Below, piece after piece: positions 2,080 to 16,924 of a stretch of DNA of 20,531 nucleotides. This stretch comes from a virus. The notes under the pieces were generated by a model that did no database searches, was not told the origin of the DNA, and saw only the letters and a list, made by a program, of their open reading frames with translations. Numbering within the stretch: position 1 is the stretch's first letter; each line of letters opens with the position of its first letter. The stretch lies in the IMG/VR virus record IMGVR_UViG_3300025093_000153, positions 1-20,531 of that record; one strand, given 5' to 3'. The translations under genes were made by a program, and so were the position numbers.

Positions 2080-2493
2080 TTATATCCACTTACACTCTTC
2101 TTTTAACATAGCGAAAACTATTCCATCTACGTCGTTTGGAAAATACTTTCTATACCGTCCTTCTTGAACAAATCCCATTTGCTCCATCATCTTCAAACTG
2201 GCCTTGTTTTTTTCAGATACTATCCCACAAAGCCTAACCACACCGCACACCTCAAAAGGATAAGCAAACATGGCATGGAGATTCTTCCTGCTCCAGACAG
2301 ACTTATCGTCTACCCATATAGCCGCCCAAATCTCTCGTCCCGTAAAACATGAGTAAGTGACGCCACCTACCAAGTTTCCATCCTTTACGAAGCCTACAGA
2401 GGTATTAGGCTCTGGGATGGGAGGACATTTGCACCTTACAGCGCAGACCTTAGCTATCACATCCTGCTTGTGGCTAGTTGGCAGTGCTACCAT
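2080..2493 (-). CDS. GNAT-family N-acetyltransferase-like protein
   Basis: This 137-aa protein fits the small phage branch of the GNAT superfamily. That branch typically has a [S/G]-R-[R/K]-x-L-x-x-[I/M]-F-x-Y-P-F segment, then a G-x-[V/I]-[S/E]-x-x-N-x-x-[S/A] loop, a helix ending M-G-F-x-x-E-G-R, and a C-terminus close to M-L-[K/R]-x-E-C-[K/R]-W. All are visible: SRKNLHAMFAYPF near residue 68, IVSEKNKAS near 91, MGFVQEGRYR near 105 and MLKEECKWI at the end. The canonical R/Q-x-x-G-x-G/A acetyl-CoA loop is degenerate, so catalysis is not assured. The ATG overlaps the upstream stop as TAATG. Phages often carry such a gene beside internal virion genes. The substrate is unknown; peptidoglycan or a virion protein are guesses. 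Confidence 0.82.
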   Translation of the reverse strand: MVALPTSHKQDVIAKVCAVRCKCPPIPEPNTSVGFVKDGNLVGGVTYSCFTGREIWAAIWVDDKSVWSRKNLHAMFAYPFEVCGVVRLCGIVSEKNKASLKMMEQMGFVQEGRYRKYFPNDVDGIVFAMLKEECKWI

Positions 2494-10271: not shown

Positions 10272-10523
10272 CTAGTCAGTTGGCCAATTTGTCATTCCTA
10301 TCCAGGCGGCGATAGCACCTAAAATAGCAACCGTAAAAAATCTAATTATAGTTTGTCCTACTGTTGCTTTTACTGACCTCCAGCTATCTAGTAAATCCCG
10401 TAGCTCGTGCATGTCGTGTATGGCGTCTTCATCTGCAAGCCCCACATCTTTTAACGCACGTCTAGCGCCGCGCTCTGCGGCGCGTTCGAGCATTTCTTCT
10501 ATTTCTTCAGGGCCGTATTTCAT
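10272..10523 (-). CDS. Small single-span membrane protein, DUF6127-like
   Basis: The ATG at 10523 is preceded by AGGTGG 5 bases upstream, giving 83 aa; a GTG at 10532 would add three residues (V-A-R). The N-terminal helix I-E-E-M-L-E-R-A-A-E-R-G-A-R-R-A-L-K-D-V-G-L, then D-E-D-A, then E-L-R-D-L-L-D-S-W-R matches the pattern I remember for DUF6127 phage/prophage proteins. One transmembrane helix lies near residues 58-77 (I-I-R-F-F-T-V-A-I-L-G-A-I-A-A-W-I-G-M). The length, single C-terminal span and charged N-terminus would allow a holin, spanin-like or membrane-anchor role. No lysis enzyme is visible nearby, so the function is open. Confidence 0.68.
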   Translation of the reverse strand: MKYGPEEIEEMLERAAERGARRALKDVGLADEDAIHDMHELRDLLDSWRSVKATVGQTIIRFFTVAILGAIAAWIGMTNWPTD

Positions 10524-10556
10524 CCTAGCCACCTGTCTCTATCCATAACTCAATAT

Positions 10557-10583: not shown

Positions 10584-11126
10584 CTATTTTATTTGCGGCC
10601 CTATAAACCAACTTACAATGCTGTGTCTTTTGCCGCCTGTTACTGGTTTGACTTGATGATATAAAAAACTAGGAAACACAATAACGGAACCGCGATTAGA
10701 AAAATTATCTGGTTCATACCCTTTATCCCCATCCATAAATTGAAACTCTCCGCCTTCGTAGTCTTCTCTGGAATTAAGTTGCATAACAACACTTATTTTG
10801 CGCATGTCGTCACACAATTTGTGTGTGTCCATGTGGGCTTCATAAAACTCGTCTATGCCATATTCAGTGAACTGGCAACCGTCTGTACCATCAATATCGA
10901 ACTTCCAAGCCTGTCTGTTAGCCAGTGTCGCATAGTGATGGCATAGGCCAGCTATCCAATCATTGTGGTCAAACCAAGCAATATGAGACTTACGTTTGGC
11001 TAAATTTACACCTCCTCCAGCTTGACCTTGTTCTTTTTTCATCTCTTTCCCGCGCTCGATAATTAAGTCGCACAAGCTGTCGCTCAACACACTGTCGAAC
11101 ATCCAAAAGTGGGGTTCTAAAATCAT
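10584..11126 (-). CDS. 2OG-Fe(II) dioxygenase, prolyl 4-hydroxylase / PKHD type
   Basis: This 180-aa protein carries the complete 2-oxoglutarate/iron facial triad and co-substrate Arg of the P4H-like superfamily. H98-x-D100 is in Y-E-A-H-M-D, the distal His157 is in F-L-Y-H-Q-V, and Arg167 is in G-G-K-R-H-S-I-V-S-W-F. The companion motif D-Y-E-G-G-E-F (122-128) and the V-I-V-F-P-S strand before the second His match PiuC/PKHD-type and phage P4H-like proteins. All key residues are present, so activity is likely. Such enzymes hydroxylate proline or other residues using O2 and 2-oxoglutarate; the substrate here is unknown. ATGA overlaps the upstream stop. It lies four genes downstream of the collagen-like protein, which makes that protein a candidate substrate. 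Confidence 0.92.
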   Translation of the reverse strand: MILEPHFWMFDSVLSDSLCDLIIERGKEMKKEQGQAGGGVNLAKRKSHIAWFDHNDWIAGLCHHYATLANRQAWKFDIDGTDGCQFTEYGIDEFYEAHMDTHKLCDDMRKISVVMQLNSREDYEGGEFQFMDGDKGYEPDNFSNRGSVIVFPSFLYHQVKPVTGGKRHSIVSWFIGPQIK

Positions 11127-11812
11127 CTATAGACTTTCAGGAGTATAGTGTCCTCTGGTGATGTCACTGTAATGCTAGGGGAGGACAGAGTTACAATTGT
11201 GTTTTTAGAAAGTGTCTTTGGGCCAACAAGGAGGTCGCTCTCTAGTGATATGAAATAACATTCACTTCCAGACTTTGGTATGTCTGTAGATTCTCCAGCG
11301 CGTAGCGGCAGAGCAAGTCTCCGCCAGTCTACGTCTAAACCTTTGGCTACAGTGCATGCACACTTTACGCCTGTGACCAGAACCTCTTGCTCAAGACGCA
11401 ACCAAAGCGGGAAGTAGGGTGGAGACACAACAGCCCAATCTTTTTGCTTCCACCATACGGATGCGTCTAATGTTAGCTCAAACACTGAGGTCTCAGAGTT
11501 TAATCCGCAATCAACAATATCAATACTTGGAATAAAATGTTCTGCCACCTCGTTGGCGCTTACGCCGTTCTGCATTATCGGGTAGCTGAACCGAAGGTGT
11601 GGTCCTTCAGCAAAATCAGGAGTTGGTGTGTAAATAAACCAAGGAGAAGCGTCTCGTATCAAACTATTCGTAGAGGGGTGATACTCAGCAGTTTTTGTAT
11701 TTACGTGGTGCGAATCCCGCGGCCAAACAAACTTATCTGTAGTGTCGTAAGTTACGTCTGTGTAAATAAACCCGTCTGCGTCGGGTGATGGTGTTTCTCC
11801 GTTGTGTCTCAT
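11123..11812 (-). CDS. Hypothetical protein (229 aa) in the oxygenase/collagen block
   Basis: The ATG overlaps the upstream TGA as ATGA, with a strong GAGGTGG ribosome binding site. The protein is beta-rich with many aromatic residues: an opening G-F-I-Y-T-D-V-T-Y, a central P-W-F-I-Y-T-P-T-P and L-R-F-S-Y-P-I segment, W-W-K-Q-K-D-W-A-V-V and P-Y-F-P-L-W-L-R near 123-144, and a Ser/Thr/Val C-terminus (T-L-S-S-P-S-I-T-V). There is no signal peptide or transmembrane span and no familiar catalytic motif. Its aromatic strands (W-P-R-D, Y-P-I) recall the neighbouring DUF6065-like protein, but homology is not shown. It is co-expressed with that gene and the oxygenase. Confidence 0.62.
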   Translation of the reverse strand: MRHNGETPSPDADGFIYTDVTYDTTDKFVWPRDSHHVNTKTAEYHPSTNSLIRDASPWFIYTPTPDFAEGPHLRFSYPIMQNGVSANEVAEHFIPSIDIVDCGLNSETSVFELTLDASVWWKQKDWAVVSPPYFPLWLRLEQEVLVTGVKCACTVAKGLDVDWRRLALPLRAGESTDIPKSGSECYFISLESDLLVGPKTLSKNTIVTLSSPSITVTSPEDTILLKVYR

Positions 11813-12063
11813 ACCACCTCAGTAGAAATGTCTACCGCCCCACTTGTACCAATCATTTCTACAGCACCACTTGGCGGTGGTATAACACCTTTAACTGTCA
11901 AGTGACTTTTAATTGCTGTCTCGATAGCTTTTTTTGTGTCTTGTTCAATTATCTTGCCGTCCACTATTACAGCGGGAACGCATATCTTTTCTTTTTGCAC
12001 ACTAATCAAAAATTCATTAAGCAAATCGTCAAAAGCTAAAATTGTGTAATCTACTTTACTCAT
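11809..12063 (-). CDS. Small hypothetical protein (84 aa)
   Basis: The ATG at 12063 overlaps the upstream TGA as ATGA, with GGGA 8 bases upstream; a longer GTG start at 12075 is less likely. The N-terminal part (S-K-V-D-Y-T-I-L-A-F-D-D-L-L-N-E-F-L-I-S) is helix-like. It is followed by a strand pair (V-P-A-V-I-V-D-G-K-I-I) and a helix A-I-E-T-A-I-K-S. The last 25 residues are Gly/Pro/Val rich. I do not recognise the family. Its place between the DUF6065-like and 229-aa genes suggests it works with them, possibly as a chaperone-like accessory factor (inference). Confidence 0.62.
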   Translation of the reverse strand: MSKVDYTILAFDDLLNEFLISVQKEKICVPAVIVDGKIIEQDTKKAIETAIKSHLTVKGVIPPPSGAVEMIGTSGAVDISTEVV

Positions 12064-12764
12064 TTTCTTTCCCACATTGTTTCTCGATATATGCTTGGAT
12101 GACTTTTACGTTGTCTACGCAATAAGTCCAGCGCATCAGATTCTTTGGGCGTCATAGCCCTTATATCGGCCTTTCTATTAAAACCTCTTTTAAAAGGTAT
12201 GGCTTGGATGACAGGATAGCCTCGCGGAATGATAAATGTCGTCCCTGTCTGCTTCAGGAAGCTGGGGAAGTTAACGAACTCTAAATACTTATCTGTTTCC
12301 ACCACACCAGACATAGCTTCAAAATACTTGTTTTCTCTGTTCAATGGAGAAACAAATAAAGTAGACCAGCCTGGTGGCGTTTTCATGTGCCAGTAATTTA
12401 AAATTTTTAGTGGCAAGCGAGGTAGGGAGGGGTGTCCTTTTATTTGTCCGACGTCATGGTCCTCAATAACATTGTAATTTAAATCGGTGCGCCACTCGAC
12501 GCCGCTTCCATCCTCATTTACAACAATGCTCATTTCAGCAGGAGTGGTTAGTATCCAACCGCTTACCATTGCGTCCAATACTGGAGGGCATCTTTTTATA
12601 CTTCTGCTGGGCCAAGCAGTTGGGTCATCAAGCTCCTCATGCCCAAACCCCTTTAGCTTCTTAAACCAGTCAGGCAACATGGAGCGCGCGGGTATTGGCT
12701 CAGGGATTACACCGTATAAGTCTGGGTAAGTTGTAAATGTAACTTTAGGGCTTCCGAAAATCAT
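12060..12764 (-). CDS. DUF6065-like phage protein
   Basis: This 234-aa protein has features I associate with DUF6065. The opening is P-E-P-I-P-A-R-S-M-L-P-D-W-F-K-K. Then come I-K-R-C-P-P-V-L-D-A-M-V-S-G-W-I-L near 57-73, N-Y-W-H-M-K-T-P-P-G-W-S-T-L-F-V-S-P-L-N-R near 122-142, and P-V-I-Q-A-I-P-F-K-R near 189-198. Function is not known for that family. The domain looks like a mixed alpha/beta fold without a membrane span. It overlaps both neighbours by ATGA and directly follows the collagen-like fibre gene. Marine phages often keep this family close to fibre or oxygenase genes (from memory), which may indicate a fibre-related task. The family name should be checked by HMM search. Confidence 0.68.
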   Translation of the reverse strand: MIFGSPKVTFTTYPDLYGVIPEPIPARSMLPDWFKKLKGFGHEELDDPTAWPSRSIKRCPPVLDAMVSGWILTTPAEMSIVVNEDGSGVEWRTDLNYNVIEDHDVGQIKGHPSLPRLPLKILNYWHMKTPPGWSTLFVSPLNRENKYFEAMSGVVETDKYLEFVNFPSFLKQTGTTFIIPRGYPVIQAIPFKRGFNRKADIRAMTPKESDALDLLRRQRKSHPSIYRETMWERK

Positions 12765-14569
12765 TGTCTCTCGAAGGTAATTGTCATTTCTGTGCCAGAA
12801 GCAACTGTCAGCGCAATGGCTTGCTGGGCTTGTGTAATTCTTATGACTTGGTCTGCGTAGGCAGTCGTAGCTCCTGGCGCACCTGCTGAACCTGGAGAGC
12901 CTGCTTTACCAACCCAAGTAGACGGAGCCGCGCCCCCAGCACCACCGCTTGTAGCACCTGTTCCGTCGTTTCCAGCGCCGCCTGGGTTTCCAGGATTGCC
13001 TGGGTTTCCTGCTGTAGCGCCTGTGCCGTTTGCCCCTTGGTTTCCGTTAGAACCAGCATTACCAGGCGCTCCAGCGCTACCATTGTTATGACCGCTTCCA
13101 TTACTGCCTTGAGAGCCAGGGTTCCCGTTTGAACCTGGGTTACCAGAACTACCGCTAGCCCCATAGTTTCCGCGACCACCTCGTCCTCCGCGGCCACCAT
13201 CACCAGCGTTAGCCGCGCCATTTATTTTAAAAACCCCTTGTCCGCCGTTACCGTAGTTTCCATACCCAGGGGCGTTCCCATCGGGACTGCCTGTGTTACC
13301 GACAGCGCCATTTGCCGCATTGCTACTCGGTATACCGCCTCCATTGCCGCCGCCTCCGCGATTGCCCCGCGCGCCTCCAGCGCCTCCGTTTCCAGAAGTT
13401 CCAGGATTCCCAGAGCTTCCTGCGCCCCCTGGATTGCCAGCGTTCCCGCCAGCACCACCAGCACCGCCTGTACCAGAAGTGCCAGGATTTCCTGTGCCGC
13501 CAGGATTACCAGCCGAGCCGCCAGTTCCCCCATTTCCAACTACCCCTGGATTTCCTGCGCCTCCTGGATTTCCAGCAAGACCAGCATTTCCGCCAACCCC
13601 ACCTGGACCGCCGACTCCTCCTGGTCCACCTGCTCCACCAGCACCGCCCGCTCCCCCAGCGAAGGTATGATAACTACCAAAAGAAGAGCTAGCACCAGCC
13701 GCCCCATCCGCACCTGCGGCTCCAGTAGCGCCAGCCGCACCCTGAGCGCCCGTGTTGCCCGCCGTGCCGTCTGAGCCATCATTACCTGGGCTACCTGCAC
13801 CGCCACCAGTTCCAGGGTTTCCATCAGTGCCATTCGACCCTGGATTTCCAGGAGACCCTGCGGTATGACCGCTTCCTGGGTTGCCAGACGCTCCTTGGTT
13901 GCCGTTGCTTCCAGCGTTTCCATTGCCCCCAGCACCGCCGTTATTATGGCCACTGCCGCTTGCGCCCGTGTTTCCTGGGTTTCCATGATTGCCTACGCCA
14001 CCCGCACCGCCAGCCTGTTGGGGGGAGGAGTTTCCTCCTTGACCGCCGCCGCCACCGCTTGGCGCGGCTCCCCCTGGATTTCCAGCATTGCCAGGAGAAG
14101 TCTTGTAGGGCATGCCGCCCGCACCACCACCGCCACCACCGCCACGTCCTCGGTTGCCAGCGTTACCAGTAGCGCCAGAGTTTCCTGCATTACCTCGTGC
14201 GCCAGCGTTCCCTCCAGTACCAGACGTTCCTGGGTTGCCAGTAGCTCCTTGGTTTCCTGGGTTTCCCGCGCTTCCTCCTGCGCCGCCCACGCCATTTGTG
14301 CCGTCGTTACCTTGATTGCCAGGATTTCCAGGCGTCCCGCCTGCCCCACCTAAACCATTGCTTCCTGGGTTTCCTGAGTTACCTGGCGCGCCCTGACTGC
14401 CTTCAGCCCCAATGCTACCTGGACTGCCAGCACTTCCGTCTAAGCCTTTACCCCGAACAGTGACAACAGAAATACCTGGCGGCACATTGAATGTACCACT
14501 CGATGTAAATGTTTGCTGACCCCCAGGAAACAGGGGGTCTGCTCGCAGTGAGACCCCAAGTAACGGCAT
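12761..14569 (-). CDS. Collagen-like / glycine-rich Gly-X-Y repeat protein, probable adhesin
   Basis: This 602-aa protein has an N-terminal beta module at residues 17-40 (Q-Q-T-F-T-S-S-G-T-F-N-V-P-P-G, then S-V-V-T-V-R-G), common in glycine-rich phage fibre proteins. Gly-X-Y tracts follow. Residues 45-149 are an unbroken run of 35 triplets; further tracts lie at about 187-293, 305-412 and 465-570. They are separated by Gly-rich or aromatic interruptions (S-S-F-G-S-Y-H-T-F near 295). A C-terminal beta tail (570-602, Y-A-D-Q-V-I-R-I ... M-T-I-T-F-E-R-Q) closes the protein. Proline sits almost only in the Y position (about 30 G-X-P triplets, mostly G-N-P). The fold may be a collagen triple helix or a polyglycine-II bundle as in phage tip adhesins. 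Host recognition is inferred. The start overlaps the upstream stop as TAATG. Confidence 0.88.
   Translation of the reverse strand: MPLLGVSLRADPLFPGGQQTFTSSGTFNVPPGISVVTVRGKGLDGSAGSPGSIGAEGSQGAPGNSGNPGSNGLGGAGGTPGNPGNQGNDGTNGVGGAGGSAGNPGNQGATGNPGTSGTGGNAGARGNAGNSGATGNAGNRGRGGGGGGGAGGMPYKTSPGNAGNPGGAAPSGGGGGQGGNSSPQQAGGAGGVGNHGNPGNTGASGSGHNNGGAGGNGNAGSNGNQGASGNPGSGHTAGSPGNPGSNGTDGNPGTGGGAGSPGNDGSDGTAGNTGAQGAAGATGAAGADGAAGASSSFGSYHTFAGGAGGAGGAGGPGGVGGPGGVGGNAGLAGNPGGAGNPGVVGNGGTGGSAGNPGGTGNPGTSGTGGAGGAGGNAGNPGGAGSSGNPGTSGNGGAGGARGNRGGGGNGGGIPSSNAANGAVGNTGSPDGNAPGYGNYGNGGQGVFKINGAANAGDGGRGGRGGRGNYGASGSSGNPGSNGNPGSQGSNGSGHNNGSAGAPGNAGSNGNQGANGTGATAGNPGNPGNPGGAGNDGTGATSGGAGGAAPSTWVGKAGSPGSAGAPGATTAYADQVIRITQAQQAIALTVASGTEMTITFERQ
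12865..14437 (-). repeat. Gly-X-Y triplet repeat tracts of the collagen-like protein
   Basis: Four tracts of Gly-X-Y triplets make up most of the protein (residues about 45-568). A longer duplicated unit is also visible. G-S-G-H-N-N-G followed by G-N-A-G-S-N-G-N-Q-G-A occurs at about 205-227 and again at 491-513, near nucleotides 13889-13957 and 13031-13099. This points to internal duplication or recombination within the gene. Confidence 0.75.
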
Positions 14570-14895
14570 TACGACACCTTCAGAGCTAGTGTTACAAAAT
14601 CATCTGGTAAATCATTAACGTCTGTCACGTACTGACGGTGATAGTATCTGTCGGATTTATCGTCTGCTTCCCAGAGCAACCTGTCATAAACAAGAACAGG
14701 AGTGTCAGTAAAAATAATATCGTTGCCTTCTTCATCTTGAAACCATGTTGATAGTGCGGCCAACGTATCAGTTGGGTCTTGATAGTCTAGGTTCGTATAT
14801 GCAATCCCATTGCTATCAAGCCACTGCCTTATTGTCGCGCAAGCGGCTTGACCTATTTTCGCATATAGATGTACTTCGTCATAGCGAATAGTCAT
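14569..14895 (-). CDS. Small glutaredoxin-like fold protein, unknown function
   Basis: The ATG at 14895 lies one base after the fibre stop (TAA-C-ATG), giving 108 aa; the longer frame upstream is inside the fibre gene. The sequence follows a thioredoxin/glutaredoxin layout: a beta strand V-H-L-Y-A-K, a helix Q-A-A-C-A-T-I-R-Q-W-L-D-S-N-G-I, a strand Y-T-N-L-D-Y, a helix, then T-D-T-P-V-L-V-Y-D with a likely cis-Pro at residue 66. The usual C-P-Y-C is replaced by Q-A-A-C, so only the second cysteine (C19) remains and disulfide reductase activity is doubtful. A fibre-folding or assembly accessory is a plausible alternative, given its place between two fibre genes. The fold assignment is by pattern only. 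Confidence 0.62.
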   Translation of the reverse strand: MTIRYDEVHLYAKIGQAACATIRQWLDSNGIAYTNLDYQDPTDTLAALSTWFQDEEGNDIIFTDTPVLVYDRLLWEADDKSDRYYHRQYVTDVNDLPDDFVTLALKVS

Positions 14896-14896
14896 G

Positions 14897-16924
14897 TTAA
14901 GCCTCATAAAAAGATAGTGATACGTATATCGTAGTTGAGCCTTTAACCAAGAGTGCCGTATATATGGTCTCTTTGTTGGCGGCAGTTTGCACCGCAGGCT
15001 GTGTACTTGAACTGTTGTATTTGATACTGAAGCCCGTTGGGGCGGCAAAGGTAAATGTCCTGCCGCCTGTAGCATCCTGCTTTACAAAAATTGTCACCGT
15101 GCGCGCCGTGCCTGCTGGCAGTTCATCTGTATCAGGTAGCGTGACAGTGGTGTCGCCCGTCAGCGTGTAGCTGACATTGTTGGTTGCATCTGGAATAGTG
15201 ACAGAACCAGAGACGTTTGTGTTAGACGCCATAACTTCTTGGAAGTTTTCTAGCGTTACATCTGTTGCCTTATTGTTGTCAAAGTCTACGTCTCCAGACA
15301 TCGTGCCGCCAGCCAAAGGCAACTTAGCGGCAATGGCGTTGTTTGTCGTGCTGGCGAAGTTGCTGTCGTCATTAAGCGCGGCCGCTAACTCATTAAGAGT
15401 ATCGAGCGACGCAGGCGCGCTATCCACAAGGTTGGCAACCTCTGTGTCCACGTAACCTTTGGTAGCGGCATGACCTGTAGCTGTCGGTGTGGCGACTGTA
15501 ATATTGTTTGTTGTTGTCGCGCCCACGTCAGTCAGGGCTTGCAGTGTGAAGTTTGTTGGCGTGTATGAGGAGCCGACAAACATAGGAACCTGGTTTGCTG
15601 ACGGTGCAGTCGCCGCTACGTTTGCCAAGTCCTGTAGGTTGATGCTGGAAAAAGCCGCAGATGTCACCCAAGCGCTTCCGTTGTATACCTTGAGTTGGTC
15701 GTTTGTTGTGTCATACCAGAGGTCGCCCTCCCCAATATTAGCACCCGTGGGGGCAGATGCGCTGATGAAGTAAGTGTCAGCAAAATTGTTTACGTCTTGG
15801 AGGTTGGTATTGACGTTATTGATTGCAGTTAGCGCGCCATTCACATTGTTAATAGCTGTCACTGCACCAGCTACAGCAGTAACATTGGTGTCAATAGCGG
15901 CAACAGAGGTGACGTCTGAGTCTACAGCCGCAACTTTGTTGACGTTCGTAGCATTTGAATTGACCGCGTTAATTGCAGGGAGCGCACCAGCTACACTGTT
16001 TACATTTGCTATGTCGGTTGCGACTGCGCCAATCGTGTCTGAACCCGCCAAGTCTGTAGCGACAGTGCCTATGTCTGTAGCATCTCCAGCAACAGCAGTA
16101 ACACTGGATGAAATATTTGCGACTGCGTTTATGTTAGGAATAGCTCCTGCAACCGCACCGATGTTGTTTGAACCAGTGATGTCGGTGTTAATGTTTGTAA
16201 TTTCAGTAAGTTTGGCCTCGACGTTACTAACCTTAGTTATGTCAGTGGCTACGTTATTAACATCAGTAATCGAACCAGCAACAAGATTGACGTTTGCTAT
16301 AGCAGTAGCCACTGTCGTAACAGGGGCGTTGGTCGCGTAGTATTTGGCGGAATACTGACCTGAGTTACCTACAGTCCCAGACGTCTTGGTAGCCCAGTCT
16401 TTTGCTGAACCATCAGTAGTGTCCACGCCCGTACCGCCAATAGCCCAAGCCTTAGCAGAATACTCACTGCCTGTAACCGCACCATCCACTTTGTTAGCGT
16501 AGTCAGCAACCAAAGAGCCATTGATAATCTTTTGGAATTTTGACAGGTCTGGTGTCGCATTGCTCGATGTGTGCGCCACAGTACAGACAAAGGTGTCCTG
16601 GTTCTGGGTTACAATATCCAGAACCTTGTAAGCTGTGGATGTGGCGTATGCGCCACGTCCATTGAATATCTCTACGCCTGTTTCCACAAAAGCATTGCCT
16701 GTGCCAACACGGACTTCAAGTTTATTGTTGTCTGCGGCATCTACTTGGAATGTAAAAATAGTTGGGTCAAATAGACCGTCACTGCTTTTGAAGATATCTC
16801 CTAGCAATGCGCTGAGTTGGCGTCCACCAATCTCTGCGTTCTCCATATATGTATCGAGTACATGCTCTCCAGTATTAACTGAGACGAACCTAAGCTGTTC
16901 ACCTGTAGGACGTGTAATAGCCAT
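14897..16924 (-). CDS. Tail fibre protein with decapeptide-repeat shaft
   Basis: This 675-aa protein starts at an ATG with a strong GGGAGG ribosome binding site and TAATG overlap. Residues about 18-60 form an anchor-like module shared with the 515-aa tail protein (M-E-N-A-E-I-G-G, L-S-A-L-L-G-D-I-F, S-D-G-L-F). Residues about 141-198 carry Y-S-A-K-x-[W/Y]-A repeats common in marine phage fibres. Residues 202-377 are 17 ten-residue repeats. After them come a G-D-L-W-Y-D-T-T-N-D-Q-L-K-V-Y-N-G module (near 403), an A-T-K-G-Y-V-D-T-E-V-A-N-L segment with L-P-L-A-G-G-T-M-S-G-D-V-D-F, and a beta-rich C-terminal domain. No chaperone, lyase or esterase motif is seen. A receptor-binding fibre is the likely role. 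It lies between the portal group and the collagen-like gene. Confidence 0.85.
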   Translation of the reverse strand: MAITRPTGEQLRFVSVNTGEHVLDTYMENAEIGGRQLSALLGDIFKSSDGLFDPTIFTFQVDAADNNKLEVRVGTGNAFVETGVEIFNGRGAYATSTAYKVLDIVTQNQDTFVCTVAHTSSNATPDLSKFQKIINGSLVADYANKVDGAVTGSEYSAKAWAIGGTGVDTTDGSAKDWATKTSGTVGNSGQYSAKYYATNAPVTTVATAIANVNLVAGSITDVNNVATDITKVSNVEAKLTEITNINTDITGSNNIGAVAGAIPNINAVANISSSVTAVAGDATDIGTVATDLAGSDTIGAVATDIANVNSVAGALPAINAVNSNATNVNKVAAVDSDVTSVAAIDTNVTAVAGAVTAINNVNGALTAINNVNTNLQDVNNFADTYFISASAPTGANIGEGDLWYDTTNDQLKVYNGSAWVTSAAFSSINLQDLANVAATAPSANQVPMFVGSSYTPTNFTLQALTDVGATTTNNITVATPTATGHAATKGYVDTEVANLVDSAPASLDTLNELAAALNDDSNFASTTNNAIAAKLPLAGGTMSGDVDFDNNKATDVTLENFQEVMASNTNVSGSVTIPDATNNVSYTLTGDTTVTLPDTDELPAGTARTVTIFVKQDATGGRTFTFAAPTGFSIKYNSSSTQPAVQTAANKETIYTALLVKGSTTIYVSLSFYEA
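15779..16321 (-). repeat. Decapeptide repeat array in the tail fibre (17 units)
   Basis: From residue 202 to about 382 the fibre shows a regular ten-residue register, [V/I]-x-x-[V/I/A]-x-x-x-[hydrophobic]-x-x. Units start at 202, 212, 222, 232, 242, 255, 265, 275, 285, 298, 308, 318, 328, 338, 348, 358 and 368. Two units are stretched to 13 residues by G-S-N-N or G-S-D-T type insertions. The array looks like a fibre shaft. Similar V-T-T-V-A-G-I-type repeats occur in marine phage fibres (from memory). Confidence 0.8.

Follow-up and report, generated by a model that had tools for sequence, protein, structure and literature searches.

A 2OG-Fe(II) oxygenase gene beside a proline-containing Gly-X-Y adhesin gene in tailed phages, and its possible role as an adhesin prolyl hydroxylase

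Does a phage-encoded prolyl hydroxylase act on the phage's own adhesin? The question is raised by a gene run in the window, that is, the whole 20.5-kb viral contig analysed here, in which a 2OG-Fe(II) oxygenase is encoded close to a glycine-rich Gly-X-Y protein. Hydroxylation of collagen by viruses, giant viruses included, provides a precedent (PMC8968730, PMC9301287). PBCV-1, with its vCPH (PDB 5c5t), and mimivirus likewise possess a virus-encoded 2OG-Fe(II) prolyl hydroxylase of the P4H fold and Gly-X-Y proteins of the virus. However, their hosts are eukaryotic and their substrates are of collagen type, whereas here the virus is a tailed phage, its adhesin is glycine-rich, and the two genes are physically coupled, with DUF6065 as a partner. 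In the literature searches made here, no phage prolyl hydroxylase came up that acts on a tail fibre or is paired with a tail adhesin.

A coupled gene run on a tailed-phage contig

The contig carries late genes of a tailed phage, and the capsid protein encoded on it shares 75% identity with its counterpart in Roseobacter phage CRP-810, on which a marine phage family has been founded (PMC11288001). The genes of interest lie on the minus strand and are listed in the order of the run.

14569..14895, minus strand: ~108-aa protein, start codon inferred; directly upstream of the adhesin, recurs beside Y-Pro adhesins in unrelated phages
12761..14569, minus strand: glycine-rich Gly-X-Y adhesin, 602 aa; 30 Gly-X-Pro-Gly versus 2 Gly-Pro-X windows, predicted beta segments, two long Gly-rich lobes
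12060..12764, minus strand: DUF6065-like protein; conserved partner in adhesin cassettes of many phages and haloarchaeal tailed viruses
11809..12075, minus strand: 88-aa protein within the coupled run; near clade only
11123..11812, minus strand: 229-aa protein, no family match; its stop codon and the start of the oxygenase gene overlap; seen in the near clade alone
10584..11126, minus strand: 2OG-Fe(II) oxygenase (PF13640), 180 aa; H98-x-D100...H157...R167, with Y95, R45-x-S47 and W173 at P4H substrate-site positions
10272..10532, minus strand: DUF6127 protein, the next gene after the oxygenase; also in relatives without the oxygenase

An earlier note on this DNA had placed the oxygenase four genes downstream of the adhesin in a tight run. 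Indeed, three genes separate the two, which makes it the fourth after the adhesin, and all junctions of the run (14569, 12761/12764, 12060/12075, 11809/11812 and 11123/11126) are ATGA-like or overlapping, as in translationally coupled genes. Promoter-like or terminator-like sites were sought, and none rose above chance. Sequence searches with the DUF6065 and ~108-aa proteins against solved structures gave no match.

Adhesin and oxygenase

Gly makes up 36.5% of the adhesin. Among its 164 G-X-Y-G windows, 30 have Pro at Y and 2 have Pro at X, which agrees with the earlier hand count of about 30 Gly-X-Pro with Pro nearly absent from X. GNP accounts for 20 of the 30 Gly-X-Pro-Gly windows, and there are 33 G-X-P in total. 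Most of the 43 prolines stand directly before Gly, and 'GP' occurs only twice. The commonest residue at X is Asn (49/164). Gly itself occupies X in 37 and Y in 38 of the windows (~23% each), and the repeat has many interruptions. Such frequent Gly at X and Y is unusual for collagen, a feature on which the earlier note had not remarked.

The description of the protein as collagen-like is therefore doubtful. It matches the Collagen profile PF01391 above the cut-off (37.6 bits versus a gathering threshold of 27.2, E 2e-9), but it departs from the unbroken Gly-X-Y repeat of collagens, in which X and Y are seldom Gly, and its AF2 model has confident beta strands at residues 17-40, 295-303 and 572-599. 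The choice between collagen and polyglycine-II was made on composition, since the Gly lobes (pLDDT ~26) gave no usable AF2 model. Because Gly reaches ~23% at both X and Y and confident beta strands stand at both ends, the adhesin probably forms a bundle of the polyglycine-II type and not a collagen trimer. The modelled layout fits a base domain bearing glycine-rich bundles, with collagen as another possible form. In eight relatives of the adhesin, the Gly register and many Asn are exactly kept; the Pro sites shift between triplets and remain at Y.

Glycine-rich tip adhesins are also found in phage S16 (gp38, likened here by description) and in the haloarchaeal Hafunaviridae, and in haloarchaeal viruses the host range is determined by related adhesins (PMC8651126). 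The haloviruses carry a DUF6065 homologue near the adhesin, as here; in the halovirus region that was checked, the adhesin is proline-poor and there is no oxygenase. The collagen-like proteins Scl and EPclA share PF01391-matching Gly-X-Y repeats with the adhesin, and collagen-like phage and bacterial proteins of this kind favour Pro at X (PMC8968730, PMC3368898).

The enzyme belongs to PF13640 (2OG-FeII_Oxy_3; 60.2 bits versus gathering 27, E 4e-16), and the residues H98, D100, H157 and R167 named in the earlier note are all present and invariant in 48 diverse relatives. Its AF2 model is confident (pLDDT 93), and the best 18 PDB matches to the model are all prolyl hydroxylases (E 7e-12 to 3e-9). 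The closest solved folds are Pseudomonas putida PPHD (PDB 4iw3/4j25), algal P4H with (Ser-Pro)5, PBCV-1 collagen prolyl hydroxylase and PHD2, the top match being PPHD in complex with EF-Tu. PPHD and the HIF hydroxylase PHD2 share the single-domain fold and are the closest structurally. However, they target EF-Tu and HIF, respectively, have no linkage to an adhesin gene, and are only ~16-26% identical to the oxygenase over the aligned model; for PBCV-1 vCPH the value is 20%.

Residues of the predicted substrate site point in the same direction. Y95, at -3 of H98 and at least 90% conserved in relatives, is likened to the substrate-contact Tyr140 of algal P4H because both stand three residues before the first metal His; the PHD2 counterpart is Tyr310 (PMC9676403). 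In the alignment with Bacillus P4H, R45-x-S47 corresponds to the R-T-S stretch, and W173 follows H157 by 16 residues, just as Trp243 follows His227 in algal P4H (numbered as in PMC5684110). A difference lies at the 2OG-binding position, where the oxygenase has R167 at +10 of H157, an invariant Arg in its subfamily. In collagen P4Hs, a Lys ten residues after the second metal His binds the 2OG C5 carboxylate, while PHD2 has Arg at the C5 site. The oxygenase is also a 180-aa single domain without the peptide-substrate-binding and dimerisation domains or the PDI partner of C-P4H. The PKHD-type enzymes PiuC and YbiX (PDB 3dkq, 9ghl) are the best profile match to its C-terminal half, but the score against the NCBIfam PKHD equivalog, 53.7 bits, is far below the cut-off of 143. 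Thus, of the P4H/PKHD assignment proposed earlier, the prolyl hydroxylase fold is retained and membership of either subfamily is not: judged from the model, the enzyme looks prolyl-hydroxylase-like in fold and site, and lies outside the collagen-P4H and PKHD subfamilies. Its relatives form two subfamilies, type 1 (HxD...H...R, which includes the enzyme at 10584-11126) and type 2 (HxE...H...K).

Recurrence of the pairing and the prolines of the partner

Among 80 capsid-anchored loci, the closest ones, whose capsid identity is at least 82%, keep the cassette as one block. In 43 records searched for PF13640, the oxygenase lies inside the cassette in the records with Y-Pro adhesins (G001-G008) and in L072, and elsewhere in the genome in G013 and CRP-810. 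As for relatives without the enzyme, the glycine-rich proteins of L023 and L075 have no Y-Pro, and that of L055 is a short true collagen. L072 is an exception, in which the enzyme stands beside a glycine-rich protein with no Y-Pro window. Since block inheritance alone cannot prove a functional link, wider sampling was undertaken.

From 2.9 million viral contigs, set A was sampled by a DNA pattern for GNPGxxGNPG and set B by one for (GPX)4. A further set C, drawn by GGAGGAGGA, consists of glycine-rich proteins chosen regardless of Pro. Set A proteins mostly have Gly at X and Y, and Pro nearly only at Y. Those of set B resemble collagen: they have Pro at X and, unlike the adhesin, almost never Gly at X or Y. 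A PF13640 oxygenase is present in 38 of 50 set A records versus 7-8 of 50 set B records. After removal of near-copies, an oxygenase lies within 2.5 kb of 43/57 set A proteins (Y-Pro of at least 5), 3/23 X-Pro proteins of set B (Fisher 4e-7 against set A) and 1/32 set C proteins with Y-Pro below 5. In the pooled glycine-rich set, it is nearby in 43/55 with Y-Pro of at least 5 versus 3/37 of the others (P 2e-11). Within set A, the two genes are on the same strand in 66 of 67 cases, ~40% lie within 50 bases, and many overlap or are 4 bases apart. In set A contigs longer than 30 kb, 11 of 15 pairs are adjacent versus 3.3 expected at random (P 5e-6); such adjacency is not explained by phage habitat or the number of oxygenases alone. 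Because set A was itself chosen for prolines, set C and the tests anchored on the enzyme and on DUF6065 matter.

For the enzyme-anchored test, the 48 diverse enzymes (A1) were too divergent for the collection scan, and the closer set A4 was used. Around type-2 enzymes, Y-Pro Gly-X-Y ORFs reach 0.194/kb within 1 kb versus ~0.007/kb further out, while the density of proline-poor Gly-rich ORFs changes much less with distance. Around type-1 enzymes, Y-Pro and X-Pro Gly-X-Y ORFs are both enriched within 2.5 kb. The enzyme trees require at least 12 (type 1) and at least 7 (type 2) changes in the state 'Y-Pro partner'. Both types, though their active-site residues differ, are paired with Y-Pro proteins, and the order of the genes is not the same in the two. 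The idea that the Y position is specific to the PF13640-type family was dropped, as the same family adjoins X-Pro (GPX) collagens. Among cultured phages, HTVC033P (gp62/gp64), S-RSM4, S-SM1 and S-CAM8 have the enzyme close to a glycine-rich protein.

DUF6065, which recurs between adhesin and oxygenase in many phages, served as a third-gene anchor blind to both Pro and 2OG. With a partner of Y-Pro of at least 4, the threshold already used in the enzyme-anchored sampling, the oxygenase is present in 20/20 loci versus 0/13 with a proline-poor partner (Fisher 1.7e-9); at DUF6065 loci without a recognised Gly-X-Y partner it is present in 9/25. However, the independence of these cases is limited because they are related, and Pro content and oxygenase presence are both strongly clustered on the DUF6065 tree. 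Only four well-supported independent contrasts are available, of which 1.5 on average agree and 0 disagree, which is not significant, so that the 20/20 versus 0/13 table is a strong description and weak independent evidence. One proline-poor member inside a proline-rich clade (L636) was considered as a clean joint loss of proline and oxygenase, and this was dropped since a PF13759 oxygenase occupies the slot.

Sequence comparison thus shows the gene pairing, its recurrence across phages and its dependence on partner prolines. The earlier note had named lack of co-occurrence in relatives as a refutation; the oxygenase instead adjoins proline-containing Gly-X-Y proteins far more than X-proline or proline-poor ones. 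As to the residue, 69 glycine-rich proteins chosen regardless of Pro were compared, of which 23 have an oxygenase nearby; Pro at Y is the best single separator (AUC 0.94), closely followed by Asn at X (0.92).

What the enzyme may act on, and what this would mean

Because the oxygenase adjoins the adhesin mainly when the adhesin contains prolines, the phage probably hydroxylates its own adhesin. In late infection of an aerobic host, probably a roseobacter, adhesin and enzyme would be made from one coupled message. With Fe(II), O2 and 2-oxoglutarate, the oxygenase would hydroxylate prolines of G-N/S/A-P-G triplets before or during folding of the chain. The hydroxyprolines may stiffen polyproline-II-like strands and may provide the receptor-contacting face of the tip with further polar groups, with DUF6065 and the ~108-aa upstream protein as presumed assembly partners of the adhesin. 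The X-Pro collagens, the 9/25 DUF6065 loci, the trait clustering on the DUF6065 tree, L072, L636, the AUC of Asn and R167 all weaken this reading. Action at the Y position, as proposed earlier, agrees with the AUC of Y-Pro, but Y specificity is not a property of the family, which adjoins X-Pro collagens as well.

Three other explanations have to be weighed. Y-proline may be purely structural in a polyglycine-II or polyproline-II bundle, and the oxygenase a passenger of the cassette with another target, e.g., a host translation factor. Polyproline-II-type folds may favour Y-Pro even without hydroxylation, the top structural match, PPHD, acts on EF-Tu, and both block inheritance in the near clade and trait clustering on the DUF6065 tree would be expected of a passenger. 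We regard it as unlikely, since DUF6065 cassettes with a proline-poor adhesin are without the oxygenase (0/13), and two subfamilies with different active sites pair with Y-Pro proteins in different gene orders. Somewhat more doubtful is modification of the adhesin on another residue, most plausibly beta-hydroxylation of Asn at X of G-N-P. The 2OG superfamily includes enzymes that hydroxylate Asn in proteins, Asn at X ranks second among the separators, and 20 of the 30 Gly-X-Pro are GNP; but in the X-Pro collagens that adjoin this enzyme family, Asn fills only ~4% of X positions, so that Pro is the feature common to the partners, and the closest solved folds act on proline.

There is also a small chance that the enzyme is an ordinary auxiliary 2OG oxygenase, with a small-molecule, nitrogen/2OG or DNA-repair role, which lies near tail genes by chance of layout. 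Such genes are abundant in marine phages, and their roles have been assigned without tests (PMC3037559, PMC9602691). Against this, the position within contigs is far from random (11/15 versus 3.3 expected), the link depends on partner prolines, and the strand is shared in 66/67.

Hydroxylation of the phage's own adhesin would give these common genes a job. Few unexplained genes are as common in marine phages as those for 2OG-Fe(II) oxygenases, of which S-SCSM1 alone has 24; control of 2OG and nitrogen or DNA repair has been proposed, and their use has been called uninvestigated or, for viral P4H, 'cryptic' (PMC9602691, PMC3037559, PMC9301287). The proline-dependent pairing gives a concrete candidate substrate, the adhesin of the phage itself, and contradicts the statement that phage collagen-like proteins lack both a Y-proline preference and prolyl hydroxylases (PMC3368898). 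It also points to bacterial viruses as a compact source of hydroxylated Gly-X-Y materials. On a broader view, to which we give an even chance, such a system is widespread among phages: prolines of glycine-rich receptor-binding adhesins would be hydroxylated by a 2OG-Fe(II) oxygenase dedicated to this task, or by the two subfamilies in tandem. Protein hydroxylation would then be part of host recognition, and a large part of the 2OG oxygenases classed as 'auxiliary metabolic' in marine phages would be explained by it.

Further genes of the tail region

Tail-region genes of the window
2080-2493, GNAT-like acetyltransferase within the tail gene block
12060-12764 (-), DUF6065-like protein, directly after the adhesin gene
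14569-14895, protein of about 108 aa, upstream of the adhesin
14897-16924, tail fibre of 675 aa with a near-threshold CBM_5_12 match

The tail fibre scored 25.7 bits against the carbohydrate-binding module CBM_5_12, just under the threshold of 26.2 bits. The GNAT-like acetyltransferase is retained by most relatives and is possibly a further modifier of virion proteins. The protein of about 108 aa was found again beside adhesins of unrelated phages with proline at the Y position of Gly-X-Y; its weak resemblance to an ArsC-family protein was not significant (E 0.15).

The DUF6065-like protein and a PF13759 oxygenase

Genes on other viral contigs
L602, 5902-6735, DUF6065-like protein
L636, 6687-7298, PF13759 oxygenase in the slot of the PF13640 enzyme

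The DUF6065-like proteins of the window and L602 share 37-39% identity with haloarchaeal Hafunaviridae proteins, whose genes have a glycine-rich adhesin gene (HRTV-5 gp33) close by, without an oxygenase. The DUF6065-like protein may accompany glycine-rich adhesins generally, as their partner. The PF13759 oxygenase adjoins a proline-poor glycine-rich adhesin and DUF6065, and its target may be another residue.

Tandem oxygenases and X-proline collagens

Type-2 then type-1 oxygenase genes after a glycine-rich protein gene, T4-like cyanophages
L443, 2156-5612, S-RSM4
L444, 2732-5618, S-SM1

In many contigs (L116, L138, L123, L146, L446-L473), oxygenases of the HxD...R (type 1, as in the window) and HxE...K (type 2) subfamilies stand in tandem, directly adjoining one glycine-rich protein, and they may carry out two different hydroxylations. 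The glycine-rich protein of S-RSM4 and S-SM1, annotated solely as hypothetical, has six Pro-Gly motifs. Type-1 oxygenases also abut or overlap collagen-like genes with proline at X (GPX; L527, L532, L243, L225, L582, L594). This would amount to another positional specificity.
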